Source: Entrophospora sp. SA101
Taxonomy: Eukaryota > Glomeromycota > Glomeromycetes > Entrophosporales > Entrophosporaceae
Length of the DNA stretch: 32,057 bases
Direction: 5' to 3'
NCBI GenBank assembly: GCA_958430865.1
Contig: CAUDNR010004285.1
Location: forward strand, 13,772 to 45,828
Position numbers and translations under genes: made by a program. Shown here one piece after another: positions 1 through 32,057 of this stretch; positions within the stretch are counted from its first letter, which is position 1, and the number at the start of each line of letters is the position of its first letter. The notes beneath the pieces are model-generated. The model was given only the letters and a program-made list of their open reading frames with translations, was not told where the DNA came from and did not search any database.

Positions 1-448
1 TAGATTAATTTGGTATAAATATCTCATTTTTGAATCTGAGGGTCGAAACCCACTTTTTCCTAGAACAGCCCCCATATAATGACCTGATGAAAACATTTTG
101 CAGAGTTTGAAATAAATCCAACATATTGAATATAGATGTCAGATTTAATAAAATATTCTTTCTTGCATGGAAGAAAATCACTTGAATCCAAGGCCCTTTC
201 TATTCTTTAGTTGCACCAATAACACATTTATCAAAGTATTGTATGTTTTTGTGGACTGAATGAATTACCTGAGCTAAAGCATTAAGCTATCACCTCCACT
301 GGAATATGATGATTATGGCTCTTTTGAATTCCACAACTTGCTAAGCAAACTCGTGACAAGTAGCTCAGGTAACCCCCCTATCAACTCAAAACCAATACAA
401 TGAAGAATGATACCTGGCAAAGATCATTATTTGAAGCCAAGAACCTGA
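1..448. other. Outer arm end, no gene seen
   Basis: AT-rich sequence with no recognisable coding region. A short dyad GGGTCGAAACCC near 41-52 resembles a Pol III B box, but no A box or tRNA fold accompanies it. The mirror copy is 31610-32057. Confidence 0.6.
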
Positions 449-1190
449 ACAAAATTAGATGATGTTCTAATATAAGCTTTTTGCATTGTAAAAGTAAATT
501 ATAATATAATATAATACTTACAAACTGGTTACTATAAAGGAAATTAATTTATAATAAAATATGCCTTGAGAAATAAAAAATAGATTTAATTAGATGATGT
601 TTTAATAAAAATTATTGTGTTTTAAAATTAAATTTATCATATAACTTATCCACTGGTCATTATAATTTTGTGGTGTAAGAATTAATTATAGTATAATACT
701 TGCTTCCTAATTATTATAAAAATAAATTTATTTAATTAGTGATGTTTTAATAAAATTTATTTTATATCGTAAAGGTTAATCTATAATATAATACTTACAA
801 TCTATTCAGTATAGGAAGCAAAATTTTTAATTTATTTACATAATAGAATTTATTTGTTGATTTATATATATTACAATACTTACTCCCTGATTATTATAAA
901 GAAATAAAAATAAATTTAATTTAGATGATGTCTCAATAAAAATTATTTTGTGTTGTAAAAATTAATTTATAATATAATTCTTACCATCTGGGTATTAAGA
1001 AATAAAAATATTATTATTTAATTAGATGATTTTTTTTGATAATTACCTTGCATTGTAAAATTGATTTACAGTATAATACACTTACTTCCTGATTATTTAT
1101 TATAAAAACAACAAAAAACTATTTAATTAGATTGTGTTGTAAAAATTAATTTATAACTATTCATTTATAAATAATTTTACTTTAAATTAA
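449..1190. repeat. Degenerate AT-rich tandem repeat, left arm
   Basis: About six imperfect copies of a roughly 110-150 bp unit. Each unit carries, in order, ttaattagatgatgtt, a tgttgtaaaaattaattt-like block, ataatataatacttac and ctggttattataaag. The same family appears at 17036-17200 and is interrupted by a MITE at 17203-17520. No coding potential. Confidence 0.75.
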
Positions 1191-1780
1191 TTACCCTCAT
1201 TATTATTTTCATTGATAAATAAAGAAAAAAAAAAAAATAGAAGAGGGAAGTGAAGAAGATATTAATATTGACAATAATAATATTATTAATAATATGTGAA
1301 AATATAAAATAGATCAGAATAACCAAAGAATAAGAATGCTTATTTAATGACTTCTCTTAAAATCACTGATGATTTATCTTACAATTTTTTTTTTTAATAT
1401 AAATTATAAATTAATATTATTTCATCAAAATAAATAAAATACTAATAATCTTTTTTAATCCCTTCTTTGAATACGGATACTTTTCCTCTGCTATTATTAA
1501 AATATTTATGATGATTATACAATGTATTTGATGTTATTATTGATGGTAGTAGAAGTAGTAAAAAAATGTCTAGGAATAAACAAACTTAACAATAAATTTG
1601 TTTACAGTCACATGCAGAATTATTCTTTAATCATTATTATATTATTATTAATATATTATTCTTATTATTGATTTTTTTTTTTACATTAAAACATTCTACC
1701 TAAATTGACATAATGATTTTGAAGTGACTATATTACCTATGGCTGCAGAGCAAATAAGTTGCTTTTTTCCTAGACTGTTA
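1191..1780. other. AT-rich spacer, no gene seen
   Basis: Low-complexity AAT/ATT runs and poly-A or poly-T tracts without a plausible reading frame. The mirror copy is 30278-30867. Confidence 0.6.
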
Positions 1781-1965
1781 CCTACTTATAGTACGATTGG
1801 TTTGCATTTTCATCATACTTTGAGGTATGACGAGTTTGCATTTGCGTTGTACTTTTAGGCTTGAAGAATTCGTGATTGTTTTTTTCATTTGAGGACCCAT
1901 TCTGGATTTATGGAAGAATCCACATTCGATGTATGATTAGTTTGCATTTGCGTCATACCTTTAAT
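1781..1965. repeat. 35-bp 'GTTTGCATTTGCGTCGTAC' repeat units, left arm
   Basis: Three degenerate copies of a unit like TACGAnTnGTTTGCATTTG followed by CGTCGTACTTTTAGG lie at about 1787-1822, 1824-1860 and 1928-1965. A weaker fourth is near 2228-2290. The unit is itself near-palindromic (TACGAC..GTCGTA). A related pair in opposite orientation sits in the central region at 10880-10985, also next to a GTTACCTACTTA-type end. Short frames crossing the array are repeat shadows. The mirror copy is 30093-30277. Confidence 0.6.
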
Positions 1966-2300
1966 CATGTAGGTTATGCTGATTTGAGTTTGACTTCGAT
2001 TCCCACTTTGGGTCCCGATTTGGATTACAATTGGTTTATGAATTCGTCGTCATTTTTGAGGCCATTATAGTGGAGCATTAGTGATGACACGAAAATGTTG
2101 ATGAAAAAAAGTACACTTTTAGTGATCATTATTGACATCCATAACGATGGACTTTTGGTGACGCTGTTGACTTCAATACTAGGATTCGAAAAAAAAAAAT
2201 GCTTTGACGTACTACTGATTCAAAAAAGTTGTTTGCACTTTGCGTATCACTTTTATGTATTACTTTGGATCATACTTTTATGTAATAATTTTTGATTTGA

Positions 2301-2800
2301 ATTTTTCTACATTTATTGTAAGAGACAACAAAAAAATTACTTCTTACCTAAGGTGAATGGTTAGTTGAATGTAGTATATCTCCTCCTGCCAAAGGCATCT
2401 AACTTTAATCCATTCAGAAAGAAGGACAATAATCAAATATTGGATCCTCATCAAGAATCTCCTTACTATTACTAATTTGAATACATTTAGATTGAAATTT
2501 GCAATTCTTTTTAACATCAAAACTCAGTAATTACTTTTTACAGAAAATATTATAAATGTATCATGATGACGCTTTCAAAAATATGTGATATCCAAATTAG
2601 ATTAAATAATATATAAATAGAAGATATATATGATTGGTAATTAAATAAAATAATTTATATTAATTAATTTTATAAAATAATGTAACTCAATTGCGATGTG
2701 AAAAAAAAGCAAAAAAAAAAGTATATTTCAATGATATGTTGTTCCTGTATGTTTGATCTAGTAATAATTTTAAAATTTTAGTATTTCAAAAAATTAAAAA
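2301..2800. other. AT-rich spacer, no gene seen
   Basis: No credible coding frame, repeat array or RNA gene recognised. The mirror copy is 29258-29757. Confidence 0.55.
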
Positions 2801-2999
2801 TGGCAACAATAATTGGCAACAACGAACGACCAGCAACCTTGCAACAACAAAGGACCAGCAACCATCTTCATTACCTTCATTACTATATTACTATAATTGC
2901 AATAATTATCTAGTTTTTTTTTTGATACTTGTCATTAAACTTGCAACAACGAACGAGCGGCAACCTTGTAACAACGAACAACCAGCAACCTTGCAACTA
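2801..2999. repeat. CAACAACGAACGACCAGCAACCTTG-type minisatellite, left arm
   Basis: Degenerate copies of a roughly 25-bp unit built from CAACAACGAACGA, CCAGCAACC and TTG. They form two blocks (2801-2873 and 2940-2999) separated by AT-rich DNA. The mirror at 29059-29257 reads GGTTGCTGGTCGTTCGTTG. Confidence 0.7.
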
Positions 3000-3025
3000 T
3001 TCTTTATTCATGTGTCCTTAATAGT

Positions 3026-3470
3026 ATAGGGTTATTTATACCGACCCGTAGCCTAAAAGAAGTTGAGCTTCCGTTCCTTCGATGCAAGGTATCACATAAG
3101 GTGGAGTGGCTTCAGACGGGGCTCCATTTTATATTTATGCCGGGACTCATTGTGATTTTAACTTTTTTTTATTTTGTTTTTTATTTTATCTTTGTTTTAT
3201 TTTGATTTTGTCAGTTTTTATTTTATTTTTTTATTTGTTTTTTTTTTCTTTTTCTTTTGAAAATCAAATAATGAGTTTCGTAGCAATCCCTTGGACGCAT
3301 TCAAGTGTTAAGGACATTTCAATTAAATTCCACTCACAAAAATACTATGTGGAGTTACAACTATTAATTAATTCTCGAGTTGATGAATAAAAGGTAGTCG
3401 TGGTAGCAGACCTAACCAGAGCTCGTCTCGGAGGGTTGCTTTTACGTGGAGTTGAATATAACTTCATGAC
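3026..3470. repeat. GC-elevated block of probable repeat origin, left arm
   Basis: Two islands (about 3026-3150 and 3270-3470) are clearly richer in G+C than the surrounding DNA. A T-rich stretch at about 3165-3260 separates them. They look like segments of a dispersed element, but I recognise no protein domain, A/B box or LTR. The open frame across 3106-3390 is mostly a hydrophobic translation of the T-rich spacer and I do not accept it as a gene. The mirror copy is 28588-29032. Confidence 0.35.
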
Positions 3471-4807
3471 ATTGACTAATCTTTTATTTTAAACTCTGCA
3501 TCTTCTATGTCTTTTATTAAACATGGGACATGCAATATTTTTACTATGTGAAAATTCTTTACGTGTGCACCGCTCATTAGCATAATTTTAATAAGTTACT
3601 TTTGATCAAAACATCATCTTAATTTACAAAATTCATAATATATCAAGGATCTAGTAGGTATCTATGCATATAATGTTTAGAACCTATTAAAATTCAAATA
3701 ATTTAATCGAAAATCAGGTATATAGCATAATGTAAGTTAAGTAGTTAAACGCATATATTCACAATTACAACTTGATTACTTGGATCAGGATGGTCAGTGT
3801 TTTTTGATTGATATTCTTTGAATTGATTTTATGTCTTCATATATAGAATTGTAACAATAGAATAATATCGGTTTATTTATATTCCTCTATTACCAATTGT
3901 CCAAGATCTTAAACCCGGGGTTCTAGGTTTTCTTTATATATCGACAAGAAATATTATATGACACTCACTCCTCTCATAAAATAAAAGTAAATGAAAAGAT
4001 AACCACTACTACTCAAACTCATATATTTGTACAAGGGGAAAGAGTAAAGCACCATCAACAACATAGTAACCTACAATTATATATCTGCTATTGTCATCGA
4101 ACACATGAGTAATCGTGAAACTACTCGCATAAGCAGTTAAAAAAAGTATCAACATTTACATCGTCATTAAAAACACGATCAATTGTAGAAGCATCTATAA
4201 AACAAGGCAGTGACATTCCTGGATAATTATTTGCATTGTTTGTTGACAATGTTGACTGTTATCATTTGCAATGTTTACAATGTTGATTAATGATCGCTTC
4301 CATTTGATGATAAATGTTTATTTAAACTTTTTTTCCGAGCTAATTTTTATTTATAATATTAAATGTGCGCTAGTCACAATTAGATGATTATCGTTGTTAA
4401 TCTACAATGTGGGTGCAATTTCAATGCGTTGATAAATTGTTGAAAGGCTATTGATTGTTTATAAGTTGTGTACACACTGCCATTTATCATCTAAAGAATA
4501 AAACAAAACGTTTACCCAATCTGTATATTTTTCTAAAATACAAATCCCCAATTCCTCAATGTCCAACAACAACTATACACATCCATCCAATTATCTATTT
4601 ACAAAATCTTAAACAAGAACCCAATTAGCAAAGATGCTTTGAACCTATGTTTTGAAATTGTCAAGAAAATCTTAGATATATGATCCATCACATAGTGATA
4701 GAGTTGCAATATTGACGAGATAACAAAATAGAAAATTATCAATTGATACAAAAATGTTTTAATGGCAATGTTGACAATTATCTAAATAAGCAATTATACA
4801 GTATAAT
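3471..4807. other. AT-rich arm interior, no gene seen
   Basis: No credible coding frame. It contains short direct repeats of a TTGACAATGTTGA / GCAATGTTTACAATGTTGA type near 4225-4290. The 3' part may hold further decayed MULE sequence upstream of the recognisable relic. The mirror copy is 27251-28587. Confidence 0.5.
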
Positions 4808-5707
4808 AAGTGGGCATGGCGTTGGAAACGTCAAATAATGATAGGTGGTATCAAAACAACATTGCGCTTAGAAGTCTATCACGCAATCATCAAGAAAAAA
4901 AATTATCATTCTAATTCAAGTCTTGTTGAGGTGTTTGAAAGAATTAAAAATGACATATATAAAAATGGTGTCTTCATATTTTTATTGATACAATATTTCT
5001 ACAACTGAAGAATTATGTATCGATAATTCTAATTATATTTTTGATGTAAGAGGTTCTTCATTACGTGAATTAATCTTGGCGGCTAAAGAAAATCCATTGG
5101 AAATTTGGAAATTACATTATTATAATTCAAATAAAAACCAATACGTCCTTATTTTTGTCGATGGTTCGTATGTGTATACTTGCATACTCCTGTCAAATTG
5201 TGGAATAGTATGCGGACACTTTTTTATAGTTTTAAGAAGAGTAGCAAACTCTTGAAATTTCATACAAGTATGATTGCAAAAGGATGGTTTAAGGATCTAA
5301 TAGATGATGTTAAATTGAAAAAGGAAAATATCTTGAGTAGTAATTGTATTAGGACTTACAATGAACCAAAACTATTTGTAGAAGCATTTGATGAAAGTTC
5401 AAAAAAAAATAAAACACCAGCGATTATCGAAGGAAATAAAAATAAAAAAGATAACAGCTTCTGTTAAATTTAGAAAAGATGTGAAAATTGTTGAAGAAGA
5501 TAAAGAAAAATATCTATTAGTAGAAAAGGTACTCAAAGGTGTGTATTGAAAATAACAGAAGAAAATGAGATTAAAAATCCTTTGAAAGTAAAAACTAAAG
5601 TGTGTACTCCTCAAAAAGTCCATTATGCTAGATCAAAAAGTAATAATAATGATGGTGATGATAATGATAATCACGCTCCAAAGATTATGTATATAAAATC
5701 TGTTTAA
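4808..5707 (+). pseudogene. MULE (Mutator-like) transposase C-terminal relic with SWIM-type zinc finger, left arm
   Basis: Three reading frames join into one MULE-like C-terminal region. Frame A (4808-5008) reads KWAWRWKRQIM..IKTTLRLEVYHAIIKK..SLVEVFERI, matching the 'STQRVESFNAIIK..L' segment after the catalytic core. Frame B (4998-5255) reads FVDGSYVYTC..NCGIVCGHFF, the SWIM finger. Frame C (to 5467) reads KFHTSMIAKGWFKD, the usual sequence after the finger. A lysine-rich tail (about 5560-5707) resembles the NPL..K..P basic tail of these proteins. Breaks: a stop at 5006-5008, two frameshifts, and Tyr in place of the first SWIM Cys. The DDE catalytic part is not recognisable upstream. It is a dead fragment of a once autonomous element, duplicated with the arm. 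Assignment is by remembered family pattern. Confidence 0.62.
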
Positions 5708-7309
5708 CGATCAAAAAATGAAAGAAATTAGAAAAAAAAAATATTGGAGTTTTTAGTGATTATCCACTCACAAGATGTTTTTTTATACCAAATATCAGTT
5801 TCATCCAATGTGGGTTAACATGCAAATAAAAATTTTTAGGAGCACCAATAGGATGTTTTTGAAAGATGTTTGTTGATACCATTGATTAATTTTGATTCTG
5901 ATGGAAGACAAATACTTTATACAGAATCTCCTTTAATTCCACGTTGATTGTTTTTGCTACGATAACGGCGAAAAAGTAAACTAATACCATCATGTAGAGA
6001 TTGAAATTGATCCATACAAAGGTAATAACAATTGTCTATAGTGTAATTCGCTTGCCAAATGGCCTTTATTTAAAAGTGCAATAGGAGTATAGGAAATGGA
6101 TTTGATGGTGATTCTTCTGAGATTTGAATTTATCCCAAATTTTCATAAAAGGATCGTCAATTAACTCTACAATTATGGTGCAATTTATAAGATACATAAA
6201 GATATGATGTTCGAGGGACAGTAGTTGGTGCGTCTTTTTTTTTTTTTGAAGACACAATTCAAAATTATAGTCACAAAATTCAAACAATGAATGACCAAAA
6301 AATCTGTTCAAGTAGATCGTATAGAGTATAATGATGAATGAAAGTATTTTCATTGGAACTTTTAATTATAGGTAATGGAAGAAAGTTCTCCATTTTCAGG
6401 ATCAGATTAATTAAAGAATTCGTTAATAATCTGGTGAATATTGCTAATTATAAGGATAAAAGGTAAATATATTTTTTCTTTATTCTATAAAATCATTACA
6501 TTATTTATTATTATTATTAATTTCATATTTTTAATAATTTCTATTAATCTTGTCCCGATTTGATGAAGGAATAACTTGCATCAATGTAAAAGTTCATCGA
6601 AAATAAAGATTTTTTTTTTGCATAAAACCTACCCGTTGGAATAATTTCGCAATTTCCAGGAAAGGAATTTATTTTCTTATTTTCAAGTATATTGATTGTT
6701 CCTTTATAAGTAAATTAATATTAGTTTATTTTACAAAAACGACAAAGTGCAATAATGATTATATCAAAATAAAGCTTGCTTACTGCATAGGAGCTACACA
6801 CAAATAAGTCCAAAGAGAATATTATTATATACTAATTAATTCTCATTGTTTGGTCAATTACAAATACATTGTAGTTCTATGGGAGAAACTTCATCCTATC
6901 TTATTTCTCTTTAAAGGGATCTTCCCTTATTCAACCAAAGCAAGCAAGTAAAATCAAATTTATTTTCACTCCTTCCACTTGCGAATGTATCCATTCTTGA
7001 CAGGCAAATCTGAAAAGGATGTGTATGATGCAATTATTAACACATTCTTTCCAGTCTTTTTTGTCATTTTGTTCAAGGTTTCAGGGGTCCGACTGGATCA
7101 TTGACATTCCTAACGTCTTTCTATACTCTATTGTGGAGTATCATCTCAGGAAATGCAAAGAAAAATACAAGGTAGAAATCTAACACTATTTATAATAAAT
7201 TAAAGTACTATCATCTAGGTTCCAGTTCCATCGAATCAAGATTATTTTTTCTTGAATATTAATTAAATATTCTAAAGAGAAGGGTCTCTCTTTCAAAGAA
7301 CGTTCTCAA
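5708..7309. other. Arm interior, no gene recognised
   Basis: AT-rich DNA. On the minus strand at about 6964-7130 two overlapping frames stay open in a less AT-rich stretch (one reads SDLPVKNGYIRKWKE then stop). This may be a decayed exon of an unknown gene but matches nothing I know. The mirror copy is 24749-26350. Confidence 0.5.
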
Positions 7310-7965
7310 TAGAGATGGGCAAATGGCGTATAGTTGAACACTATACGACACTATACAATACTTTACGTATAGTGCGTATAGTACGTATAGTACGTATAGT
7401 AGTGTTGAATTTTGATTGGGTGATTTTCCAATGTAATACAAAACTGAATAATAATAATAATAAGAAAAAAAAAATAATTTTGCTTATTACGATAAGCATA
7501 AATCTTTAATTTATTCAACCTACACTTTTTTAGGTTTTTATTTATGAATCATTAATTATATTGAATGAATTAAATATCATAAAAATCAAAACTTCTTTCA
7601 TTTTTATTTGATTCTTCAATTATGTTGTAATTTACCTGTACACCAAGTATTTGAAGTATTAAAATGTTCTCCAAAATAATTTCTTTTGATTTTAATTGTG
7701 GCATTTGGACAAAGACGTAAATGTTTTTCACATCTAGATATTGAACTAGAACATTAATATTAAAATGTTGCCAAATTGCAGGCAAGTTTAAAATATATAT
7801 TTATTGTGAGAAGAGTATTAATGTGTAACATCACATCTATTATTTGGCAATAACCTAAACAGGAATTGATTTACATTTACTACTATATTTTTCTAGAACT
7901 ATACGCACTATACGTATCACTATACGTATAGTATTATACGTATAGTACTGATCTGCCCATCTCTA
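7310..7965. mobile_element. hAT-like deletion derivative at the inner edge of the left arm
   Basis: The element begins TAGAGATGGGCA and ends TGCCCATCTCTA, a 12-bp terminal inverted repeat of hAT type (YARNG start followed by TGGGCA). Subterminal regions are packed with palindromic CTATACGTATAG / GTATAGTGCGTATAG repeats, as expected of transposase-binding arrays. A minus-strand frame at 7570-7785 has a pattern loosely like the hAT dimerisation region (NVLVQYLDV..IYVFVQM), with no usable ATG. Flanking 8-mers gttctcaa and gttattat agree at 5 of 8 positions, so a target duplication is not proven. TA also flanks both ends, so a Tc1/mariner-type MITE is the alternative. Relative to the right copy it lacks 36 bp between direct repeats of ATTGAAG. 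Confidence 0.6.
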
Positions 7966-8003
7966 GTTATTATTTATTTCATTATTGTTAAAATTGGTCA
8001 CGT

Positions 8004-8245
8004 GAAATTCGCGAATTTGGTGGTGTGGTAGCTAAATGGTCAAGAATTCCTTTGAATAATATCATGACTTGATAAATTTTATTAAAGAAGTAGAATCATT
8101 AAACATCCAAAATAATTTAAAAGAAAGAGAGAAGGAAAATAAAGCCAAATATACTTACGAACTTCTTTATGAAAAAGTAGATCGCGGAAGATTAAGGTTA
8201 GGGAACATTCTCAAAGCGAGAAGTATTGTTATATATGATAATTGA
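8004..8245 (+). pseudogene. Unrecognised coding relic with one frameshift
   Basis: Frame 1 (8004-8072) reads EIREFGGVVAKWSRIPLNN and stops. An overlapping frame (8069-8245) reads on as LINFIKEVESLNIQNN then a Lys/Glu-rich stretch with LLYEKVDRGRLRLGNI. The two together look like one ancient coding segment. No ATG and no family recognised. It begins about 40 bp inside the left arm boundary, in single-copy DNA. Confidence 0.3.
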
Positions 8246-8898
8246 TAATTACTTTTAATCAAATGTAAAACATGATATTTTACTAAATCATATATTTAAA
8301 AACTTTTTTTTTAAACATGTGATTATAGTCGATCAATGCAAAAAGATACTTAAAGTTATGATTTTATTCAATTTCAATTCTCGAAGATGCTCTGTAATAA
8401 TTATAGGTCTTCGTAATACCAAACATATCTTGGGGTTTTTTAGGAATTCTGATCTAAGATTTTCTGACGAAGGCTCAAGATATTTCACGACACAAAATTT
8501 CACATTTATGTAGACATAGACATCAGTTATTTTGATTTTTAATTTCGCAAGTGACCGATATCCATTACCTGATACAATTTATAATGAACATATTTATTAT
8601 TACAATTGGATTATAATATAAGAAAATCAATTGCAGATTAGATTCCAAAAGCACATTTTAGAATTAGAAGCATAATATCATTTATTTGATTTATAATTGC
8701 TTCGCATCTACTTCGTGGCCATACTATTTATATAACACTTCGATATCCCTGAGGGTTGATATCTTTTTTATTTTTCCGTAATGTATAATTTAGCTTTTTT
8801 CTGCTTCAGGCATATAGTATAGAAACAATATATTTGATTCTTTTCATTTTTATTACAAGATTTTTAAACATTAATGAAATGTAGCTGATAAATTATAT
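8246..8898. other. AT-rich spacer, no gene seen
   Basis: No supported gene. The 64-codon frame starting near 8319 has no family resemblance and no coding context. Confidence 0.5.
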
Positions 8899-9039
8899 TA
8901 TCAGGTAGGTCCTATATAATCACTAGCAGAAATAAACAAACTTATTTTTTGTAACTTTATATTATAATCATGTGATACAATAATTTTAGAAAAAAAAAAA
9001 TATATATTTCTACCAGTAATACATCAGACCTACCTGATA
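8899..9039. mobile_element. Small MITE-like element, copy A
   Basis: 13-bp terminal inverted repeats TATCAGGTAGGTC / GACCTACCTGATA enclose 115 bp of AT-rich DNA. The 3' half shares tataatcaYgtgatac and ccagtaatacRtcRgacc blocks with copy B at 10656-10761. Both copies are followed by CAAGAACAAA, so the true unit extends beyond this terminus. No coding capacity. Confidence 0.65.
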
Positions 9040-10349
9040 GCAAGAACAAAACGCGCATTAAAAACGTAATGGATACATACAAGAAAATTGCTTGTTACAC
9101 GCTATCGTAAAGAAAACAAGCCTTGGCTTGAGAACAAATTTCGACTTGATAAACCCATATTAAGTAAAACCTAAAAACCGTTCGCTGGTAAAGGCTTATT
9201 TAGCCTGATCCATTCAATTTATCAATTATTTCGCTCCCCCACATAATAATGGTTATAATAATAATAACAATAACAACAATAACAGTAATAATTGTCATAA
9301 ACATCAATAAATATGAATCAATAAATATTAAATACATTTCAAAATTTACTTTATTACTCATAGTATCATTATACTTGTTACAAATTCATGTTTCTCGGGA
9401 TTATGAAATATTATAAAAACCTACCAAACGATGGCCACCAGCCACTAACAAGACAATTCTTTTCGATAAACTGGAAGAACGTCAAAGAAACCAGTAATAA
9501 GAAAGAAAACGGATAATCGAAACAAAGATTTGGAACAGAAGAAAAGGAATATTTAAAAATTCATAAATCAATGTTAGGATCATCCAATGATCAAAGAAAT
9601 GGGTATTAAAAGGAATTCAAAAGGGTATAGGCCCACAGTTCTACTTTTACTGAGAGAAAAGAGAGACTGACAAGAGAAAAGCAAGGAAGGATCAACTCTA
9701 GGCCAAGAGGATCGAAGAACTACAAAACAAAATTTATATAAAAAGAAACGATGAAAAATGTGAACGATATAACAATATAACAATATAACAATAAAACAAT
9801 GTAAAAACTTAGCGAATTTCCAAGAAAAGCCCATAGAAGTTCCAACTAAAGAAATTAGTACATAAAAATATTAATAAATGAAAATAAAGAAAATGACAGC
9901 AAAATAATAATAAAATAATCCCGAGAACATTTCAAAATTAAAGGAAAGAAAGAAAAAATTGATAACAACAAATTTTCATGAGAAAAAAAAAAAATAAAAA
10001 AAAATAACAACATTTCAATAAAATATAAATATCATATGTATATATATTAATAAAATGGTACTTTCTAGAAAGATTTGCTTTTTTTTTCTTTAATATATCT
10101 CTATATGGATACAGTCAGAACTAACTTGTTAAGACGATGTTTGATAAAACGAATATACATGATTACTTCGGTTTAGAGTTCTGGCTGTATTAGGAGAGAT
10201 TAACATCATTATTCCCTTCTTTAAGGACGTGTAGTTTTTTAATTATTATCATATGGACAGTGAGTGAGTGAACTGTGTCCCAAAGGATTAATTGTTCTCA
10301 TGGCTCAAATAGTAGGTGTCAATTCCAAATGAGGGAAAAATAAGGAACA
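9040..10349. other. AT-rich spacer with microsatellites
   Basis: Holds AAT/AAC microsatellite at about 9246-9300 and a short TATAACAA repeat at about 9768-9800. No gene recognised. The minus-strand frame at 9580-9834 translates this repeat and lacks any domain. Confidence 0.5.
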
Positions 10350-10571
10350 ATGACATCAATATTTAATGTCAAAAATAGACAAAATTGGTTTCACAACTTT
10401 ATTTATGAGCACCCAAATAAAACAAATTCAATAATTGAAAAATAGTTTAATGAAAATAAATTATACACTGATGTAAAAAATGTGTTTTTGTGTAGAACCA
10501 AACATCAAAAAGAAGTTAATGCACATGCATTTATTGTATCTTCTCATTGTCCATTTTTAGCAATGCATTAA
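10350..10571 (+). pseudogene. BTB/POZ-domain N-terminal fragment with internal stop
   Basis: An ATG at 10350 opens a 74-codon frame broken by TAG at 10443-10445 and closed by TAA at 10569-10571. After the TAG it reads FNENKLYTDVKNVFLC then EVNAHAFIVSSHCPFLAM. This is the classic BTB start: a YTDV strand, then the xAHxxIVSSxCPFL helix of fungal BTB/Kelch and BTB/TLDc proteins. The rest of the domain is missing. A MITE-like element and a pogo-like end follow at once, which may explain the truncation. Confidence 0.5.
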
Positions 10572-10655
10572 ATGATCAAAGAAGTGAATATCATATTGTC
10601 AAAATGTTTCAAACCATAAACCTCGATAAGTCGGACGCACCAATCAATTGTAAAT

Positions 10656-10761
10656 TATCAGGTAGGTCTATATTATAATCACGTGATACGATCAGCCGTT
10701 TGATAATAATATATTTGAATTAAAATTATTTCTGCCAGTAATACGTCGGACCTACCTGATA
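10656..10761. mobile_element. Small MITE-like element, copy B
   Basis: Same 13-bp inverted termini as copy A (TATCAGGTAGGTC / GACCTACCTGATA), same orientation, 35 bp shorter inside, again followed by CAAGAACAAA. Just upstream (about 10620-10640) lies cctcgataagtcgga, which resembles the end of a pogo-like transposon. Confidence 0.65.
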
Positions 10762-10879
10762 ACAAGAACAAATTCTAACGCCCAAAAAAGGCACACGATA
10801 TTTTATTTGTGTATAAACATATAGATTATTGACTTTAAATACTGATACCACCTGCACTTTCTTGAAAAGCTTTGGTAAC

Positions 10880-10985
10880 AGTCTAGTAAGTAGGTAGCAG
10901 TCTCGAAGTACGACGCAAATGCAAACTCGTCGTACCTAAAAATACGATACAAATGCGAACCAATCGTAATTCCTAGTAAATACAT
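10880..10985. repeat. Central copy of the arm's 35-bp repeat
   Basis: In reverse complement it reads TACGATTGGTTCGCATTTG, TACGACGAGTTTGCATTTG and GTCGTACTT, matching the units at 1787-1860 in order, including the adjacent GACTGCTACCTACTTA end. It is an older, diverged copy (roughly 80-85% by eye). The minus-strand frame across it is a shadow. Confidence 0.6.
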
Positions 10986-11676
10986 AGTCTAGCTAAGTAG
11001 TAGTTACATAATCCATTAGATTAACTACTACTCGATTGATCTTACATGAAAAAGAACTCTTAATCGTTAATTAATAAAAAAAAAAGGGACGACAAATAAT
11101 GTCATTTCCAAGATAATTACAACAATTATTATTTACAATTTTTACATATGATATATAATAAATTTGTTAACACGTCAAACTTTCATACTTGTTAATCGGG
11201 AATAAGCATTTTAATAAACTAGATAAATCAATTATTGAATTACTCGAAATAATCAAGTTTGCAAGTAGATTAATCACTGAAAAACCTTTATTATACATAG
11301 AGGATGACTTTAAGAACTATAGTTGTAATCAGTGTATGGAATTCAGTTGGGGAGATAATGCAATATAAAAAACCAGCAAAATAGATATCAATAGATAATG
11401 AATACATTTAATTTTAATAACAAAAAACATGCACAACTAAATTTGCATTATGACGAATTCCATATACTGGTTGTAATAGATACTTAAATACATTATGTTC
11501 AAGAGGAATCATAAGTTAGCATTTTAGAAAATTACAAATAAATATTATCTTTCTTCCACCCGGGTGACCCGGATGCACCCAAACCGGTTCCAATCCCTAA
11601 TTTATTAATATCTTCCTTTTTTTTTATAAATGGGGGGGGGGGGTTTAAATTAGTTGTAGTTAGATAACAAGATGGA
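10986..11676. other. AT-rich spacer with a GC island and poly-G tract
   Basis: No gene seen. At 11557-11596 a short GC-rich stretch (cacccgggtgacccggatg and following) stands out, and 11632-11643 is a run of 12 G. Both are unusual in this AT-rich setting. Confidence 0.5.
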
Positions 11677-20218: not shown

Positions 20219-20226
20219 TATAAATA
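20219..20226 (+). promoter_or_regulatory. TATA-like box of the secreted-protein gene
   Basis: TATAAATA lies 165 nt upstream of the ATG at 20391. It would leave a 5' leader of roughly 130 nt made mostly of the AATCAAA repeat. Confidence 0.35.
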
Positions 20227-20238
20227 TGGACGTTGGAT

Positions 20239-20371: not shown

Positions 20372-20390
20372 TAGCAAGTATTAGACGAAA

Positions 20391-20687: not shown

Positions 20688-20794
20688 ATGTCAATTAAAA
20701 TTTTTTATTTTTCATTATTATGTATTATTATTTTTTTATCATTTGTTAGTTATTTTTATTTTGATTAGGTTCTATGTTGATAATTTTTAAAATC

Positions 20795-20800
20795 AATAAA
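20795..20800 (+). terminator. Candidate polyadenylation signal of the secreted-protein gene
   Basis: AATAAA about 108 nt downstream of the stop codon, followed by a T-rich stretch at 20809-20829. Confidence 0.45.
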
Positions 20801-21342
20801 ATAACAATTGTTTTTGAACCTTTTTTTTCATCGACTTACGCTTATCACAATTTTGATAATGTAGGATTTAGGATTTGTGACAATTTTTTTTAATGCCTTG
20901 TTCATAGATTATGCAAAATATTTTTCTATAATCTTAAAAGATGTAAAATATTTCCAATTTGATTATATGATACGGTACTCCTAAATTTTGTATGACTTCT
21001 GAAAACATATAACTCTAGTATTTTAAATTTAAACTTCATAGATTGATAGATTTGCCCTCTAGCTTTAATGTAATGGAAAGATTTTTGGGGAAAAAATCAT
21101 TTATTGTAGAGTTCTTATATTCACAAAGAATTTCGCCGCGAAAATCCTGACTAAATTCAAAGTAGATTGCGAGATTATTTCTAAGCTAATTCATTTTACG
21201 TACGTGTTTAAATGAATTATTATTTTAATTCTATATTGAAATGTAAAGTAATGCTTTACAACTCCTCCTAAATATCAAAATAGTCTATTAAAAAAATGTA
21301 AAAGACTCTAAACCATCAAGATTTTGTTGATAACAACTCTTT
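20801..21342. other. AT-rich spacer, no gene seen
   Basis: No supported feature between the secreted-protein gene and the acidic frame at 21343. Confidence 0.5.
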
Positions 21343-21554
21343 AAACTTTAGAAGAAACAGTTTACGACTCAGTGATAATAATTGATTCAGAAGATGAATC
21401 TGAATTACCATCCGACAACGAATTAAATGGTGAAATTTGGTATGATGATGCTTTTGATAATGATTTTAACTATCAAGTGTTTGACAAATTGCAAATTCGT
21501 CAAGTTCTAACTCAAGAAAATCTATTATTATTAATAAATAATTTTTTAAAATAA
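21343..21554 (+). CDS. Open acidic frame, possible exon or relic
   Basis: Open without an ATG from 21343 to a TAA at 21554. It reads EETVYDSVIIIDSEDESELP, then an acidic stretch and LTQENLLLLINNFLK. VIIIDSEDE has the form of a SUMO-interacting motif (hydrophobic core followed by acidic residues). It may be an internal or terminal exon of a gene whose other parts I could not find, or a transposase scrap. Family unknown. Confidence 0.25.
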
Positions 21555-23567
21555 TTTTTTTCTAATTACATGAATTATGTGAATTTTGGAAATTCTCTTA
21601 AAAAAAATGATTTCATTTTTTGGATAAATTACAAAATTTTGCAGCGCAGCGCAGCAATAGGAGATTCCACGCTATTACTATTACTATTACATTAATTGCT
21701 TTTTTTTTTGGAGGATTATTATTATGGAGATCAATATCCTTTATATGGAATATATTAAAGAGTTCGAAATAATCACAGATATAATTTTGGCAACTATTTA
21801 TGGCATTACAGCACAGTGATGATCGTTTATTTTATTATCAAGAAGGCAAACAACTATATTCTGCACCATACTAAATTAATATAAATTATGCATGATTTCT
21901 TTGGATATGGCGTAAAATTTAATTGTTTCTGCTTCTCGTTTCTTCGTATTATCCATTATTTGAGGTTCAGAGAAAGACCAGATTCGGAACCGTTTAAAAA
22001 TGGCTGTATAATGAATTTATGAAGTGTCACGAATAAAATTTCAATCTATAACGATTACAATTTTTTTTTTATCGACAAATAACCATGTCTGTAATAAGTG
22101 ACATCTTTGCTCCCTTAAGTAAATTTAAGTTACAATCTCTAGATTATCCACCAACAATGAACTTTTTAAAATTCAATCGGAAAAGGCAGATTACGAATGT
22201 CTTGTGAGTTTGTTAAAAGAAGTGAAAATCGAGATCATAGACAGACAGCTCTCAAATATTTGGATTTGTTGGTAAGAATGTTAATGTGAATTATGTTTAT
22301 AATCAAATGTATATTACTGCTTAAACTTTTGCCATCAAGCAGTCGTTATTACTCATATAATATTTCGTTAGTCGGATATTTTGATTTTTTCATTGATTGA
22401 TTTATTGACTGAATATTAAATATTCACTATCAAATATCTTGTGTAACCAAATCGAAACGAGATTTCCTACGTCATCTATTTGTTTATTTCTAAATTAATT
22501 ATTTCATTTAAAATTGAAGAGCCTTCAGAGGAGAAAGTAATAAATAATACAATAATAATAAGAATGGAAGAGTCTTCTGTTGCTTATATTTTGAAGAAAA
22601 AAAAAGTAAAAAGGCAGTTCTAAAAAGTCAAGCTGGATATGGAACTTGATAGAAGAAACTGAAAAATAATCTAAAGACGCTATTGTCAATTTAATGCCTC
22701 CGAAGCTTCTGATATTGTAATGTTGTAGTACATGGTGTTGAATCTACATCTAACTATATTACATAACTTGTTGTAAATACAATAATTTCAAAAAGAAAAC
22801 TCTTATCCACTTTATTTGAAAAGGTTGTTTTTTTTTGAAAAAAATATTGATATTAACAATGATCAAACAAATATCTGAATATTTTAATTATTCACCAAAT
22901 GATCATAACAATAATTGATTGAATGAATATCAGAATATTCAGTGGGTATAACCTCTATACTTACTAATTAATATTACAACTTTATGAGAAATTTTAAAGG
23001 TAAATGTAAACCAATGGTTTGTTTTTTATTATTAAAAATTTATTTGAATAATCATGAGATTTATTAGAGACAGAGTCTTTTTTAGATGGTAATTTGCTAC
23101 TTTATTAAAATTTTAGAAGGCATTGTTATTGATTTGAAAATTTAGCATCTCATTCATTTAAATATATACTTGTTTTTTCATTTAATAGATATGTTCTAAT
23201 TAATTGTTTGAGTACGATGTCCAGGATTGCTTTATCAATATCATTTCTTATAGTCCATCACAAACAGAACATTTAAACATAATTGCCTCGAATAAAAGTG
23301 GCGTATTAAAAGAAGAGATAGTGGCAGTAGCAGTAGCATAAGAATGAAATCGTAACGGTATATTATAAATATTCTTATTTATATATACTCTCTTGCAAAA
23401 TTTTTATTTATGTTTATCATAAAGTTTGGGTTTTTTTTCTAATTTTGGATCTATATACACATGACTTTTAATTTTGTAATGTAAGAACAAGTTACATCAT
23501 CAATATTAGTTAATCTTAAAGTTGAGTGGTAATAAAATGAAAAATAAAATAAATAGTAAAACAAGAA
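21555..23567. other. Long AT-rich region with only unrecognised coding scraps
   Basis: No gene supported. Short frames that look faintly coding occur at about 22086-22280 (MSVISDIFAPLSKFKLQS..) and 22690-22740, each ending in stops within 70 codons. No domain recognised. I treat the region as decayed. Confidence 0.45.
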
Positions 23568-23700
23568 TACAGTTGAACCTTGATAAGCCGAACCACTATA
23601 AAATCGATTTTCGCTTTATAATAATGCAAAATTGGTTAACCAATAAAATTATCTTGTTAAGCCGAATTCCAATATAATTTGATAAACACGAGCTTAAGAT
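23568..23700. mobile_element. pogo/Tigger-like transposon terminus (one end only)
   Basis: TA followed by CAGTTGAACCTTGATAAGCC is typical of pogo/Tigger-type ends. An internal echo ttgttaagccgaattcc lies 85 bp further in. No opposite terminus seen downstream, and no transposase frame. A diverged relative (cctcgataagtcgga) occurs near 10620. Confidence 0.4.
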
Positions 23701-23827
23701 TTGATGTTAATGATTATAAACTAATTTAAAGTTCCTCTTACAATTACCTTAAAAGTAAATATTTACACATGAATATTTATCATCATCAATATACACTACC
23801 ACATTCATCATCAGGAAATTAATTTAG

Positions 23828-23901
23828 CGTAAACTTGCATAAATCTTACGATACCGACGTAATATTGTGCAAATCTTACAGTGCCGACGTAAGTTTTACA
23901 C
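23828..23901. repeat. 30-bp tandem repeat, 2.4 copies
   Basis: Units at 23828-23857 and 23858-23887 (cgtaaacttgcataaatctt.. and cgtaatattgtgcaaatctt..), with a partial third. They share an aaatcttac core and a ccga end. Confidence 0.6.
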
Positions 23902-24076
23902 TTTTTTATTATTAAACTTACAATTGACACGTGTAAATTTTTTTTATATTTTCCGGATGATAGTATTGCTATGAATATTTTGTTGATGGGTCAACTAAAT
24001 GGCTGAATTTTTCAGGGGGCAATTGTTCAGTTTATTTCTTGGGATGAATGTAGCTAAGGCTCCGATCAGGTTGAAT

Positions 24077-24748
24077 TAGAGATGGACAGATCAATACTAT
24101 ACGTATAGTGCGTATAGTTCTAGAAAAATATAGTAGTAAATGTAAATCAATTCCTGTTTAGGTTATTGCCAAATAATAGATGTGATGTTACACATAAAAA
24201 TTAATACTCTTCTCACGATAAATATATATTTTAAACTTGCCTGCAATTTGGCAACATTTTAATATTAACGTTCTAGTTCAATATCTAGATGTGAAAAACA
24301 TTTACGTCTTTGTCCAAATGCCACAATTCAAATTAAAAGAAATTATTTTGGAGAACATTTTAATACTTCAAATACTTGGTGTACAGGTAAATTACAACAT
24401 AATTGAAGATTTCATCAAAGAAGCTGATGAAAATTTTATTGAAGAATCAAATAAAAATGAAAGAAGTTTTGATTTTTATGATATTTAATTCATTCAATAT
24501 AATTAATGATTCATAAATAAAAACCTAAAAAAGTGTAGGTTGAATAAATTAAAGATTTATGCTTATCGTAATAAGCAAAATTATTTTTTTTTTCTTATTA
24601 TTATTATTATTCAGTTTTGTATTACATTGGAAAATCACCCAATCAAAATTCAACACTACTATACGTACTATACGTACTATACGCACTATACGTAAAGTAT
24701 TGTATAGTGTCGTATAGTGTTCAACTATACGCCATTTGCCCATCTCTA
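24077..24748. mobile_element. hAT-like deletion derivative at the inner edge of the right arm
   Basis: Second copy in inverted orientation, with termini TAGAGATGGACA and TGCCCATCTCTA. It keeps the 36-bp segment lost on the left, so its plus-strand frame 24237-24488 is longer (83 codons, no ATG, ending ERSFDFYDI). The inner flank ggttgaat is unrelated to the left copy's inner flank and makes no target duplication with its own outer flank. Differences between the two copies are confined to the inner part of the element (24077-24440). Confidence 0.6.
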
Positions 24749-26350
24749 TTGAGAACGTTCTTTGAAAGAGAGACCCTTCTCTTTAGAATATTTAATTAAT
24801 ATTCAAGAAAAAATAATCTTGATTCGATGGAACTGGAACCTAGATGATAGTACTTTAATTTATTATAAATAGTGTTAGATTTCTACCTTGTATTTTTCTT
24901 TGCATTTCCTGAGATGATACTCCACAATAGAGTATAGAAAGACGTTAGGAATGTCAATGATCCAGTCGGACCCCTGAAACCTTGAACAAAATGACAAAAA
25001 AGACTGGAAAGAATGTGTTAATAATTGCATCATACACATCCTTTTCAGATTTGCCTGTCAAGAATGGATACATTCGCAAGTGGAAGGAGTGAAAATAAAT
25101 TTGATTTTACTTGCTTGCTTTGGTTGAATAAGGGAAGATCCCTTTAAAGAGAAATAAGATAGGATGAAGTTTCTCCCATAGAACTACAATGTATTTGTAA
25201 TTGACCAAACAATGAGAATTAATTAGTATATAATAATATTCTCTTTGGACTTATTTGTGTGTAGCTCCTATGCAGTAAGCAAGCTTTATTTTGATATAAT
25301 CATTATTGCACTTTGTCGTTTTTGTAAAATAAACTAATATTAATTTACTTATAAAGGAACAATCAATATACTTGAAAATAAGAAAATAAATTCCTTTCCT
25401 GGAAATTGCGAAATTATTCCAACGGGTAGGTTTTATGCAAAAAAAAAATCTTTATTTTCGATGAACTTTTACATTGATGCAAGTTATTCCTTCATCAAAT
25501 CGGGACAAGATTAATAGAAATTATTAAAAATATGAAATTAATAATAATAATAAATAATGTAATGATTTTATAGAATAAAGAAAAAATATATTTACCTTTT
25601 ATCCTTATAATTAGCAATATTCACCAGATTATTAACGAATTCTTTAATTAATCTGATCCTGAAAATGGAGAACTTTCTTCCATTACCTATAATTAAAAGT
25701 TCCAATGAAAATACTTTCATTCATCATTATACTCTATACGATCTACTTGAACAGATTTTTTGGTCATTCATTGTTTGAATTTTGTGACTATAATTTTGAA
25801 TTGTGTCTTCAAAAAAAAAAAAAGACGCACCAACTACTGTCCCTCGAACATCATATCTTTATGTATCTTATAAATTGCACCATAATTGTAGAGTTAATTG
25901 ACGATCCTTTTATGAAAATTTGGGATAAATTCAAATCTCAGAAGAATCACCATCAAATCCATTTCCTATACTCCTATTGCACTTTTAAATAAAGGCCATT
26001 TGGCAAGCGAATTACACTATAGACAATTGTTATTACCTTTGTATGGATCAATTTCAATCTCTACATGATGGTATTAGTTTACTTTTTCGCCGTTATCGTA
26101 GCAAAAACAATCAACGTGGAATTAAAGGAGATTCTGTATAAAGTATTTGTCTTCCATCAGAATCAAAATTAATCAATGGTATCAACAAACATCTTTCAAA
26201 AACATCCTATTGGTGCTCCTAAAAATTTTTATTTGCATGTTAACCCACATTGGATGAAACTGATATTTGGTATAAAAAAACATCTTGTGAGTGGATAATC
26301 ACTAAAAACTCCAATATTTTTTTTTTCTAATTTCTTTCATTTTTTGATCG

Positions 26351-27250
26351 TTAAACAGATTTTATATACATAATCTTTGGAGCGTGATTATCATTATCAT
26401 CACCATCATTATTATTACTTTTTGATCTAGCATAATGGACTTTTTGAGGAGTACACACTTTAGTTTTTACTTTCAAAGGATTTTTAATCTCATTTTCTTC
26501 TGTTATTTTCAATACACACCTTTGAGTACCTTTTCTACTAATAGATATTTTTCTTTATCTTCTTCAACAATTTTCACATCTTTTCTAAATTTAACAGAAG
26601 CTGTTATCTTTTTTATTTTTATTTCCTTCGATAATCGCTGGTGTTTTATTTTTTTTTGAACTTTCATCAAATGCTTCTACAAATAGTTTTGGTTCATTGT
26701 AAGTCCTAATACAATTACTACTCAAGATATTTTCCTTTTTCAATTTAACATCATCTATTAGATCCTTAAACCATCCTTTTGCAATCATACTTGTATGAAA
26801 TTTCAAGAGTTTGCTACTCTTCTTAAAACTATAAAAAAGTGTCCGCATACTATTCCACAATTTGACAGGAGTATGCAAGTATACACATACGAACCATCGA
26901 CAAAAATAAGGACGTATTGGTTTTTATTTGAATTATAATAATGTAATTTCCAAATTTCCAATGGATTTTCTTTAGCCGCCAAGATTAATTCACGTAATGA
27001 AGAACCTCTTACATCAAAAATATAATTAGAATTATCGATACATAATTCTTCAGTTGTAGAAATATTGTATCAATAAAAATATGAAGACACCATTTTTATA
27101 TATGTCATTTTTAATTCTTTCAAACACCTCAACAAGACTTGAATTAGAATGATAATTTTTTTTCTTGATGATTGCGTGATAGACTTCTAAGCGCAATGTT
27201 GTTTTGATACCACCTATCATTATTTGACGTTTCCAACGCCATGCCCACTT
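26351..27250 (-). pseudogene. MULE transposase C-terminal relic, right arm
   Basis: Identical mirror copy of the relic at 4808-5707, with the same stop, the same frameshifts and the same altered SWIM cysteine. The lesions therefore predate the arm duplication, or both copies were made from one already broken template. Confidence 0.62.
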
Positions 27251-29058
27251 ATTATACTGTATAATTGCTTATTTAGATAATTGTCAACATTGCCATTAAA
27301 ACATTTTTGTATCAATTGATAATTTTCTATTTTGTTATCTCGTCAATATTGCAACTCTATCACTATGTGATGGATCATATATCTAAGATTTTCTTGACAA
27401 TTTCAAAACATAGGTTCAAAGCATCTTTGCTAATTGGGTTCTTGTTTAAGATTTTGTAAATAGATAATTGGATGGATGTGTATAGTTGTTGTTGGACATT
27501 GAGGAATTGGGGATTTGTATTTTAGAAAAATATACAGATTGGGTAAACGTTTTGTTTTATTCTTTAGATGATAAATGGCAGTGTGTACACAACTTATAAA
27601 CAATCAATAGCCTTTCAACAATTTATCAACGCATTGAAATTGCACCCACATTGTAGATTAACAACGATAATCATCTAATTGTGACTAGCGCACATTTAAT
27701 ATTATAAATAAAAATTAGCTCGGAAAAAAAGTTTAAATAAACATTTATCATCAAATGGAAGCGATCATTAATCAACATTGTAAACATTGCAAATGATAAC
27801 AGTCAACATTGTCAACAAACAATGCAAATAATTATCCAGGAATGTCACTGCCTTGTTTTATAGATGCTTCTACAATTGATCGTGTTTTTAATGACGATGT
27901 AAATGTTGATACTTTTTTTAACTGCTTATGCGAGTAGTTTCACGATTACTCATGTGTTCGATGACAATAGCAGATATATAATTGTAGGTTACTATGTTGT
28001 TGATGGTGCTTTACTCTTTCCCCTTGTACAAATATATGAGTTTGAGTAGTAGTGGTTATCTTTTCATTTACTTTTATTTTATGAGAGGAGTGAGTGTCAT
28101 ATAATATTTCTTGTCGATATATAAAGAAAACCTAGAACCCCGGGTTTAAGATCTTGGACAATTGGTAATAGAGGAATATAAATAAACCGATATTATTCTA
28201 TTGTTACAATTCTATATATGAAGACATAAAATCAATTCAAAGAATATCAATCAAAAAACACTGACCATCCTGATCCAAGTAATCAAGTTGTAATTGTGAA
28301 TATATGCGTTTAACTACTTAACTTACATTATGCTATATACCTGATTTTCGATTAAATTATTTGAATTTTAATAGGTTCTAAACATTATATGCATAGATAC
28401 CTACTAGATCCTTGATATATTATGAATTTTGTAAATTAAGATGATGTTTTGATCAAAAGTAACTTATTAAAATTATGCTAATGAGCGGTGCACACGTAAA
28501 GAATTTTCACATAGTAAAAATATTGCATGTCCCATGTTTAATAAAAGACATAGAAGATGCAGAGTTTAAAATAAAAGATTAGTCAATGTCATGAAGTTAT
28601 ATTCAACTCCACGTAAAAGCAACCCTCCGAGACGAGCTCTGGTTAGGTCTGCTACCACGACTACCTTTTATTCATCAACTCGAGAATTAATTAATAGTTG
28701 TAACTCCACATAGTATTTTTGTGAGTGGAATTTAATTGAAATGTCCTTAACACTTGAATGCGTCCAAGGGATTGCTACGAAACTCATTATTTGATTTTCA
28801 AAAGAAAAAGAAAAAAAAAACAAATAAAAAAATAAAATAAAAACTGACAAAATCAAAATAAAACAAAGATAAAATAAAAAACAAAATAAAAAAAAGTTAA
28901 AATCACAATGAGTCCCGGCATAAATATAAAATGGAGCCCCGTCTGAAGCCACTCCACCTTATGTGATACCTTGCATCGAAGGAACGGAAGCTCAACTTCT
29001 TTTAGGCTACGGGTCGGTATAAATAACCCTATACTATTAAGGACACATGAATAAAGAA

Positions 29059-29257
29059 TAGTTGCAAGGTTGCTGGTTGTTCGTTGTTACAAGGTTGCCG
29101 CTCGTTCGTTGTTGCAAGTTTAATGACAAGTATCAAAAAAAAAACTAGATAATTATTGCAATTATAGTAATATAGTAATGAAGGTAATGAAGATGGTTGC
29201 TGGTCCTTTGTTGTTGCAAGGTTGCTGGTCGTTCGTTGTTGCCAATTATTGTTGCCA
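29059..29257. repeat. Minisatellite, right arm
   Basis: Mirror copy of the minisatellite at 2801-2999. Confidence 0.7.
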
Positions 29258-30092
29258 TTTTTAATTTTTTGAAATACTAAAATTTTAAAATTATTACTAG
29301 ATCAAACATACAGGAACAACATATCATTGAAATATACTTTTTTTTTTGCTTTTTTTTCACATCGCAATTGAGTTACATTATTTTATAAAATTAATTAATA
29401 TAAATTATTTTATTTAATTACCAATCATATATATCTTCTATTTATATATTATTTAATCTAATTTGGATATCACATATTTTTGAAAGCGTCATCATGATAC
29501 ATTTATAATATTTTCTGTAAAAAGTAATTACTGAGTTTTGATGTTAAAAAGAATTGCAAATTTCAATCTAAATGTATTCAAATTAGTAATAGTAAGGAGA
29601 TTCTTGATGAGGATCCAATATTTGATTATTGTCCTTCTTTCTGAATGGATTAAAGTTAGATGCCTTTGGCAGGAGGAGATATACTACATTCAACTAACCA
29701 TTCACCTTAGGTAAGAAGTAATTTTTTTGTTGTCTCTTACAATAAATGTAGAAAAATTCAAATCAAAAATTATTACATAAAAGTATGATCCAAAGTAATA
29801 CATAAAAGTGATACGCAAAGTGCAAACAACTTTTTTGAATCAGTAGTACGTCAAAGCATTTTTTTTTTTCGAATCCTAGTATTGAAGTCAACAGCGTCAC
29901 CAAAAGTCCATCGTTATGGATGTCAATAATGATCACTAAAAGTGTACTTTTTTTCATCAACATTTTCGTGTCATCACTAATGCTCCACTATAATGGCCTC
30001 AAAAATGACGACGAATTCATAAACCAATTGTAATCCAAATCGGGACCCAAAGTGGGAATCGAAGTCAAACTCAAATCAGCATAACCTACATG

Positions 30093-30277
30093 ATTAAAGG
30101 TATGACGCAAATGCAAACTAATCATACATCGAATGTGGATTCTTCCATAAATCCAGAATGGGTCCTCAAATGAAAAAAACAATCACGAATTCTTCAAGCC
30201 TAAAAGTACAACGCAAATGCAAACTCGTCATACCTCAAAGTATGATGAAAATGCAAACCAATCGTACTATAAGTAGG
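30093..30277. repeat. 35-bp repeat units, right arm
   Basis: Mirror of 1781-1965 on the opposite strand. Confidence 0.6.
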
Positions 30278-30867
30278 TAACAGTCTAGGAAAAAAGCAAC
30301 TTATTTGCTCTGCAGCCATAGGTAATATAGTCACTTCAAAATCATTATGTCAATTTAGGTAGAATGTTTTAATGTAAAAAAAAAAATCAATAATAAGAAT
30401 AATATATTAATAATAATATAATAATGATTAAAGAATAATTCTGCATGTGACTGTAAACAAATTTATTGTTAAGTTTGTTTATTCCTAGACATTTTTTTAC
30501 TACTTCTACTACCATCAATAATAACATCAAATACATTGTATAATCATCATAAATATTTTAATAATAGCAGAGGAAAAGTATCCGTATTCAAAGAAGGGAT
30601 TAAAAAAGATTATTAGTATTTTATTTATTTTGATGAAATAATATTAATTTATAATTTATATTAAAAAAAAAAATTGTAAGATAAATCATCAGTGATTTTA
30701 AGAGAAGTCATTAAATAAGCATTCTTATTCTTTGGTTATTCTGATCTATTTTATATTTTCACATATTATTAATAATATTATTATTGTCAATATTAATATC
30801 TTCTTCACTTCCCTCTTCTATTTTTTTTTTTTTCTTTATTTATCAATGAAAATAATAATGAGGGTAA

Positions 30868-31609
30868 TTAATTTAAAGTAAAATTATTTATAAATGAATA
30901 GTTATAAATTAATTTTTACAACACAATCTAATTAAATAGTTTTTTGTTGTTTTTATAATAAATAATCAGGAAGTAAGTGTATTATACTGTAAATCAATTT
31001 TACAATGCAAGGTAATTATCAAAAAAAATCATCTAATTAAATAATAATATTTTTATTTCTTAATACCCAGATGGTAAGAATTATATAATAAATTAATTTT
31101 TACAACACAAAATAATTTTTATTGAGACATCATCTAAATTAAATTTATTTTTATTTCTTTATAATAATCAGGGAGTAAGTATTGTAATATATATAAATCA
31201 ACAAATAAATTCTATTATGTAAATAAATTAAAAATTTTGCTTCCTATACTGAATAGATTGTAAGTATTATATTATAGATTAACCTTTACGATATAAAATA
31301 AATTTTATTAAAACATCACTAATTAAATAAATTTATTTTTATAATAATTAGGAAGCAAGTATTATACTATAATTAATTCTTACACCACAAAATTATAATG
31401 ACCAGTGGATAAGTTATATGATAAATTTAATTTTAAAACACAATAATTTTTATTAAAACATCATCTAATTAAATCTATTTTTTATTTCTCAAGGCATATT
31501 TTATTATAAATTAATTTCCTTTATAGTAACCAGTTTGTAAGTATTATATTATATTATAATTTACTTTTACAATGCAAAAAGCTTATATTAGAACATCATC
31601 TAATTTTGT
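30868..31609. repeat. Degenerate AT-rich tandem repeat, right arm
   Basis: Exact mirror of the array at 449-1190, read on the opposite strand. Confidence 0.75.
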
Positions 31610-32057
31610 TCAGGTTCTTGGCTTCAAATAATGATCTTTGCCAGGTATCATTCTTCATTGTATTGGTTTTGAGTTGATAGGGGGGTTACCTGAGCTACTT
31701 GTCACGAGTTTGCTTAGCAAGTTGTGGAATTCAAAAGAGCCATAATCATCATATTCCAGTGGAGGTGATAGCTTAATGCTTTAGCTCAGGTAATTCATTC
31801 AGTCCACAAAAACATACAATACTTTGATAAATGTGTTATTGGTGCAACTAAAGAATAGAAAGGGCCTTGGATTCAAGTGATTTTCTTCCATGCAAGAAAG
31901 AATATTTTATTAAATCTGACATCTATATTCAATATGTTGGATTTATTTCAAACTCTGCAAAATGTTTTCATCAGGTCATTATATGGGGGCTGTTCTAGGA
32001 AAAAGTGGGTTTCGACCCTCAGATTCAAAAATGAGATATTTATACCAAATTAATCTA

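Follow-up and report, generated by a model that had tools for sequence, protein, structure and literature searches.

We analysed a 32,057-base stretch (the window) of the draft genome of Entrophospora sp. SA101, which spans positions 13772-45828 of contig C1779 in assembly G000 (101.3 Mb in 2,123 contigs). The window forms a giant palindrome, with two nearly identical arms facing each other across a core of about 16 kb. We conclude that this palindrome is likely to be a false inverted duplication, introduced while DNA from single nuclei was amplified, merged and scaffolded. False duplication is favoured because a gap of 10 N lies within the core, because exact duplications occur elsewhere in the same assembly (including essential genes, and one of them inverted), and because the paper describing the source material reports multiple displacement amplification (MDA) together with a duplication-prone workflow. 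An earlier interpretation made from the letters alone (the sequence-only reading) had offered a recent inverted duplication, gene conversion between the arms and an assembly artefact as possible explanations. The gap, the other duplications and the source paper favour the artefact, and the other two options are not favoured. The same reading had guessed that the organism was a coenocytic fungus, which was right, since SA101 is an arbuscular mycorrhizal fungus.

The inverted arms and the join between them

The identical part of the left arm (1-7620, + strand) and that of the right arm (24438-32057, inverted, - strand) are reverse complements of each other. Alignment by BLAST gave 7,620 columns with 1 mismatch and 0 gaps, and a match by chance is excluded by this length and identity. 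The sole mismatch within 1-7620 lies at position 971 (A/T), as seen when the window was compared with its own reverse complement, and the longest exact mirror run of the window is 6,649 bases. Near-identity over kilobases, a feature of false (assembly) duplication, was therefore found here, as 1 mismatch in 7,620. The near-identical inverted arms described in the sequence-only reading are thus present in the assembled sequence. Its inner junctions, placed at about 7965 and about 24077, also stand: inward of the identical arms, 7613-7917 and 24409-24099 are 96.8% identical by BLAST, differ in length at three places (by 36, 6 and 26 bp) and carry a few substitutions, and the homology ends at 7965 in the left arm and at 24077 in the right. 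The absence of an intact gene from the arms agrees with our results as well, as the longest frame beginning with ATG in the 7,620-bp arm encodes 95 amino acids. No Pfam match was obtained for the four arm frames submitted, and the tRNA and Rfam searches of the window returned 0 matches. Broken frames at 4872-5467 on the + strand, and at the mirror position, were likewise without a Pfam match; they presumably resemble a transposase-like gene at its SWIM-type zinc-finger end.

The core between the two arm ends (7966-24076, as delimited by BLAST and end comparison) measures 16,111 bp including the gap. The 10 N occupy positions 15983-15992, about 40 bases from the window centre at 16029. The core had been taken as continuous unique DNA, and this does not hold, as the gap breaks it; the palindrome therefore rests on an unsequenced join. 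A genuine inverted duplication or palindrome calls for continuous sequence, which the gap interrupts, while a gap or unsupported join between the copies, as seen here, is a feature of false duplication. Judged by its length, this run of 10 N looks like a scaffold gap, as does a second one at 20801-20810 of contig C1663. The two halves of the core show no long-stretch similarity to each other by BLAST and meet only at the gap.

When contigs were searched with pieces of the window, scores were computed for the best candidates only; one such search missed the window's own contig, so copies can be overlooked. Among the best 40 of 1,089 candidates scored, no contig was found that bridges the gap. 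Sequence from either side of it is present in two contigs (C1861 and C653), with nothing matching across the gap itself. A second copy of the right end of the core with a different flank was not found among the best 40 of 381 candidates scored, where the search returned C1779 itself and a short dispersed element. Matches to the whole arm numbered only two, both in C1779, among the best candidates scored in this draft genome. The suggestion that the assembly be searched for other copies of the arm was thus borne out for parts of the arm, which are dispersed repeats, and not for its full length, over which nothing was seen beyond these two.

The outer edges of the window proved to be less informative. 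On the left, a run of 1,555 N (contig positions 12217-13771) precedes the window, and the left arm begins directly behind it; on the right, the last base of the arm is the contig end (45828), and the right arm was delimited by BLAST and this boundary. The window edges mirror each other because one abuts the N run and the other is the contig end. The exact mirroring of coordinates noted earlier, which holds over 1-7620 apart from position 971, is therefore an edge effect. Since the outer ends are bounded in this way, the arm length of 7.6 kb is a minimum. N was found at the start of 10 of the 19 contigs whose start was inspected, and at the end of 0 of the 21 whose end was inspected, so the longer runs probably stand for masked stretches from which trailing N had been trimmed. 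An argument from the assembly graph, that both arms end at one repeat edge, was dropped as proof, because this pattern of N placement leaves the edges with little to tell.

At their inner ends, both arms run into copies of a dispersed element. The left copy (7310-7965, + strand), delimited by comparison with copies elsewhere, has the inverted ends TAGAGATGGGCA and TGCCCATCTCTA. The second copy (24077-24748, - strand) is inverted, and its inner end differs by one base. The ends and the many copies suggest an element like a miniature inverted-repeat transposable element (MITE), a description made from these features and not from a family match. We compared the two copies with 17 copies taken from other contigs. 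Across its outer part (7310-7620) the element is the same in the two arms, and the inner parts of the left and right copies differ by gaps and by 4 mismatches over 297 aligned bases. The inner part of the right copy is closest to a copy in contig C1137 (1 mismatch in 339 aligned bases), so that the right copy combines an outer part equal to that of the left copy with the inner part of a different family member. Since the outer part is identical and the inner parts differ, the switch in identity between the arms falls inside a dispersed repeat.

Exact duplications elsewhere and the source of the assembly

We then examined eight contigs (C1151, C1341, C1915, C1663, C1672, C1222, C973 and C1364), which were taken for having equal-scoring long matches twice or more and so do not give an unbiased rate. 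All eight contained same-contig pairs, nine in total, that were 99.9-100% identical over the 1.1-2.0 kb read and lay 13-62 kb apart. Further probes matched in 4 of the 9 pairs. Spot probes placed the span of the duplication at more than 10 kb in C1341 and C1672 and at about 30 kb in C1151 (a contig of 205,922 bases), the DNA between probes being unread. In C1663, as in the arms, a short diverged stretch precedes the identical part of the duplication, and the 10-N gap mentioned above lies between the starts of its two copies. In C1222, no match was found at the place one spacing further on, and the contig start is N. Two different contigs, C1739 and C79, share 2,163 identical bases in opposite orientation. 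By score alone, further equal-scoring direct pairs are present in C1827, C1404, C1312 and C1584. Contig C1840, an inverted candidate by score, was rejected as a second large palindrome, as a mirrored probe pair mismatched and its centre was not self-complementary.

Genes expected once in a genome were also found to be duplicated in the assembly. A profile search with the MCM family (PF00493) gave 18 matches, which grouped by contig into four genes; two of these four lie on two contigs each (C25/C542 and C1068/C2070), with equal scores for every exon found. The second-largest RNA polymerase subunit (PF00562) also gave 18 matches. Contig C1359 has three equal-scoring copies (two on the + strand and one on the - strand), four further contigs have a single match each, and C459, a contig of 30,439 bases, has two equal-scoring copies in inverted orientation (13533-25578). 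The inverted copies in C459 were identical at 301 of 301 bases over the stretch read. An exact inverted pair of an RNA polymerase gene within a short contig is unexpected in a genome, and is expected in a falsely duplicated assembly.

The accessible text of the paper on the source data (Montoliu-Nerin et al., 2020; PMC6987183) names strain SA101 Claroideoglomus claroideum/C. luteum. Its nuclei were amplified by MDA and assembled either per nucleus (workflows 1 and 2, with merging by Lingon) or together (workflow 3), and the assemblies were then scaffolded with Chromosemble on a Nanopore assembly. In workflow 2 the number of duplicated genes rose as nuclei were added, and the authors advise against merging normalised single-nucleus assemblies, which they describe as prone to duplication. 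By elimination among the seven assemblies in Table 1 of that paper, G000 appears to be assembly 2n. The false duplications of workflow 2 resemble what we observed, in that the strain is the same and the extra copies include genes expected once. What the accessible text reports is duplicated genes and not palindromes, whereas the copy described here is inverted and lies on one scaffold. Our literature search on false duplication in mycorrhizal fungi found nothing.

MDA itself offers a route to inverted copies. In the data given by Lasken & Stockwell (2007; PMC1855051, accessible text), 406 of 475 chimeras formed by phi29 MDA were inverted, 337 of these 406 joined segments less than 10 kb apart, and more than 70% of chimera junctions were primed at a complementarity of 2-21 nt. 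The amplified source DNA that such chimeras presuppose was used for SA101 (PMC6987183), and G000 probably derives from that data set. The window is similar in its inverted joining of segments, which may likewise have begun at complementary sequence. It differs in scale, since the MDA chimeras mostly involved 2-21 nt and less than 10 kb, and here the element is about 0.66 kb long and the distance about 16 kb. An inverted pair of elements about 16 kb apart is nevertheless plausible as the site of an MDA chimera. As the same-contig pairs read in those eight contigs are direct, merging or scaffolding of redundant contigs is favoured over MDA alone.

Taken together, these results are consistent with the following course of events. 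One genomic stretch, the arm, would have entered the final assembly twice, once with the first half of the core and once with the second half. The second attachment may have arisen inside the dispersed short inverted-repeat element, either through an inverted template switch by phi29 during MDA or because contigs derived from different nuclei were wrongly merged. Both arm-core pieces would then have been joined across the 10 N. This pair and the other exact duplications probably share one cause, and either of these steps may have been responsible.

Genes and repeats of the core

The first half of the core carries a gene on the - strand (12309-14463) whose product combines ubiquitin repeats, a ZZ finger (just under the Pfam cut-off) and an iodothyronine-deiodinase-like domain. 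The deiodinase-like domain has a cysteine in the motif GGSHTCPLYR; vertebrate deiodinases carry selenocysteine at the matching position. Database searches gave 58 matches to this gene, several of them with the same set of domains, and all the named ones come from arbuscular mycorrhizal fungi except that of Reticulomyxa filosa. Two proteins of Entrophospora sp. SA101, P0001 (657 of 657 residues) and P0052 (350 of 350), are covered by 15-residue words from the frames of the window, introns aside. In the second half of the core, a frame on the + strand (20385-20687) encodes, from its first methionine, a cysteine-rich product of 98 amino acids with a hydrophobic, signal-peptide-like start and no Pfam match. 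This product is a candidate small secreted protein.

Several repeats were also observed. The segments 453-1175, within the left arm, and 17016-17180 belong to a satellite-like repeat family that occurs in many contigs, dominated the matches from one search with the window and supplied many of those in the search for a contig across the gap. An element of about 324 bp (17199-17522), with the inverted ends TTATCCCTTAAA and TTTAAGGGATAA, has copies of 99-100% identity in at least 8 other contigs. It may be a recently active MITE-like element, or its copies may have been homogenised by assembly. A short dispersed element (about 151-177 bp) lies at 23804-23979, with main matches that are 94-98% identical and 33 other contigs listed.

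Real duplication or assembly product

A number of observations weigh against a false duplication, and have to be set beside the evidence above. Position 971 and the inner half of the element distinguish the arms, which are thus not letter-for-letter copies over their whole homologous length. MDA yields mostly inverted chimeras, but all nine same-contig pairs are direct, so that MDA alone is insufficient to explain the assembly. Not every duplicate starts at a gap: in C1151, the second copy is preceded by 242 bases free of N. Copies of the element elsewhere are about 90-99.7% alike, which makes two real, separate copies at the inner ends plausible, and a switch in identity inside the element would equally be left by a real element-mediated duplication. 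Similarly, the inverted element copies that might have primed an MDA chimera are sites which a real rearrangement could use too. Other contigs hold copies of the left flank of the palindrome, and these range from about 95% to 99.96-100% identity over long stretches (C584, for example, with 3 mismatches in 6,680), and this range of about 95-100% resembles that of real duplications of different ages. The equal scores of the MCM and PF00562 copies are not proof of identical DNA, except in C459, where the DNA was read. G000 could also be another, later assembly than 2n. Finally, the evidence at both junctions consists of assembled sequence.

The foremost alternative is a real and very recent inverted duplication, in which the inverted left element copy served as template for mending a break beside the right one, with copying for at least 7.6 kb outward, in a process of the break-induced replication or fold-back type. 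The position of the copy junction within the inverted element copies, with different inner halves and everything outward identical, agrees with such a repair, as do the identities of the left-flank copies elsewhere. Widely spaced and diverged inverted repeats can drive rearrangements, according to the accessible text of PMC10164571. Duplications made by fold-back or inverted-repeat repair (PMC3907307, PMC10622511 and PMC10164571, as far as their accessible text goes) similarly show a mirror copy, a spacer and a junction at inverted homology. However, those papers concern chromosome rearrangements, whereas here a gap breaks continuity and the structure is known from an assembly. We consider a real inverted duplication unlikely, because the 10-N gap separates the arms, because exact duplicates elsewhere include essential genes, with one inverted pair in a contig of only 30 kb, and because the authors of the source data themselves treat duplication as an assembly problem (PMC6987183, accessible text). 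It is similarly doubtful that break repair from inverted short transposable elements is so frequent in this genome as to explain many of its exact local duplications.

It is also conceivable, with a still smaller probability, that the arm truly occurs twice, at two sites of the genome or in different nuclei, that each copy adjoins one half of the core, and that only the 10-N join is wrong. The core halves, which are dissimilar over long stretches and meet only at the gap, would fit this arrangement, and so would the difference at position 971. Such an arrangement would nevertheless require a real recent duplication and a wrong join together, and among the best candidates scored, the only two arm copies were both in C1779, and a second outer flank was not seen. 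Arms that open and close the window also suggested the long terminal inverted repeats of a large mobile or linear element, such as a linear plasmid. This reading is so improbable that we set it aside: the window is bounded by an N run on one side and by the end of the contig on the other, the contig continues leftward, the core carries a cellular gene (the ubiquitin-ZZ-deiodinase gene), and no further whole-arm copy was found among the best candidates scored in the draft genome.

If the palindrome were real, it would mean that in an arbuscular mycorrhizal fungus inverted transposon copies drive inverted duplications of large size. A stable giant palindrome, which the sequence-only reading had considered notable in a coenocytic fungus, is not supported by our results, and what was seen is likely to be an assembly artefact. 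This calls for caution with the assembly as a whole: palindromes, segmental duplications and gene-copy numbers in G000 should not be taken at face value, since exact copies are found repeatedly in both orientations, also of genes that should be present once.

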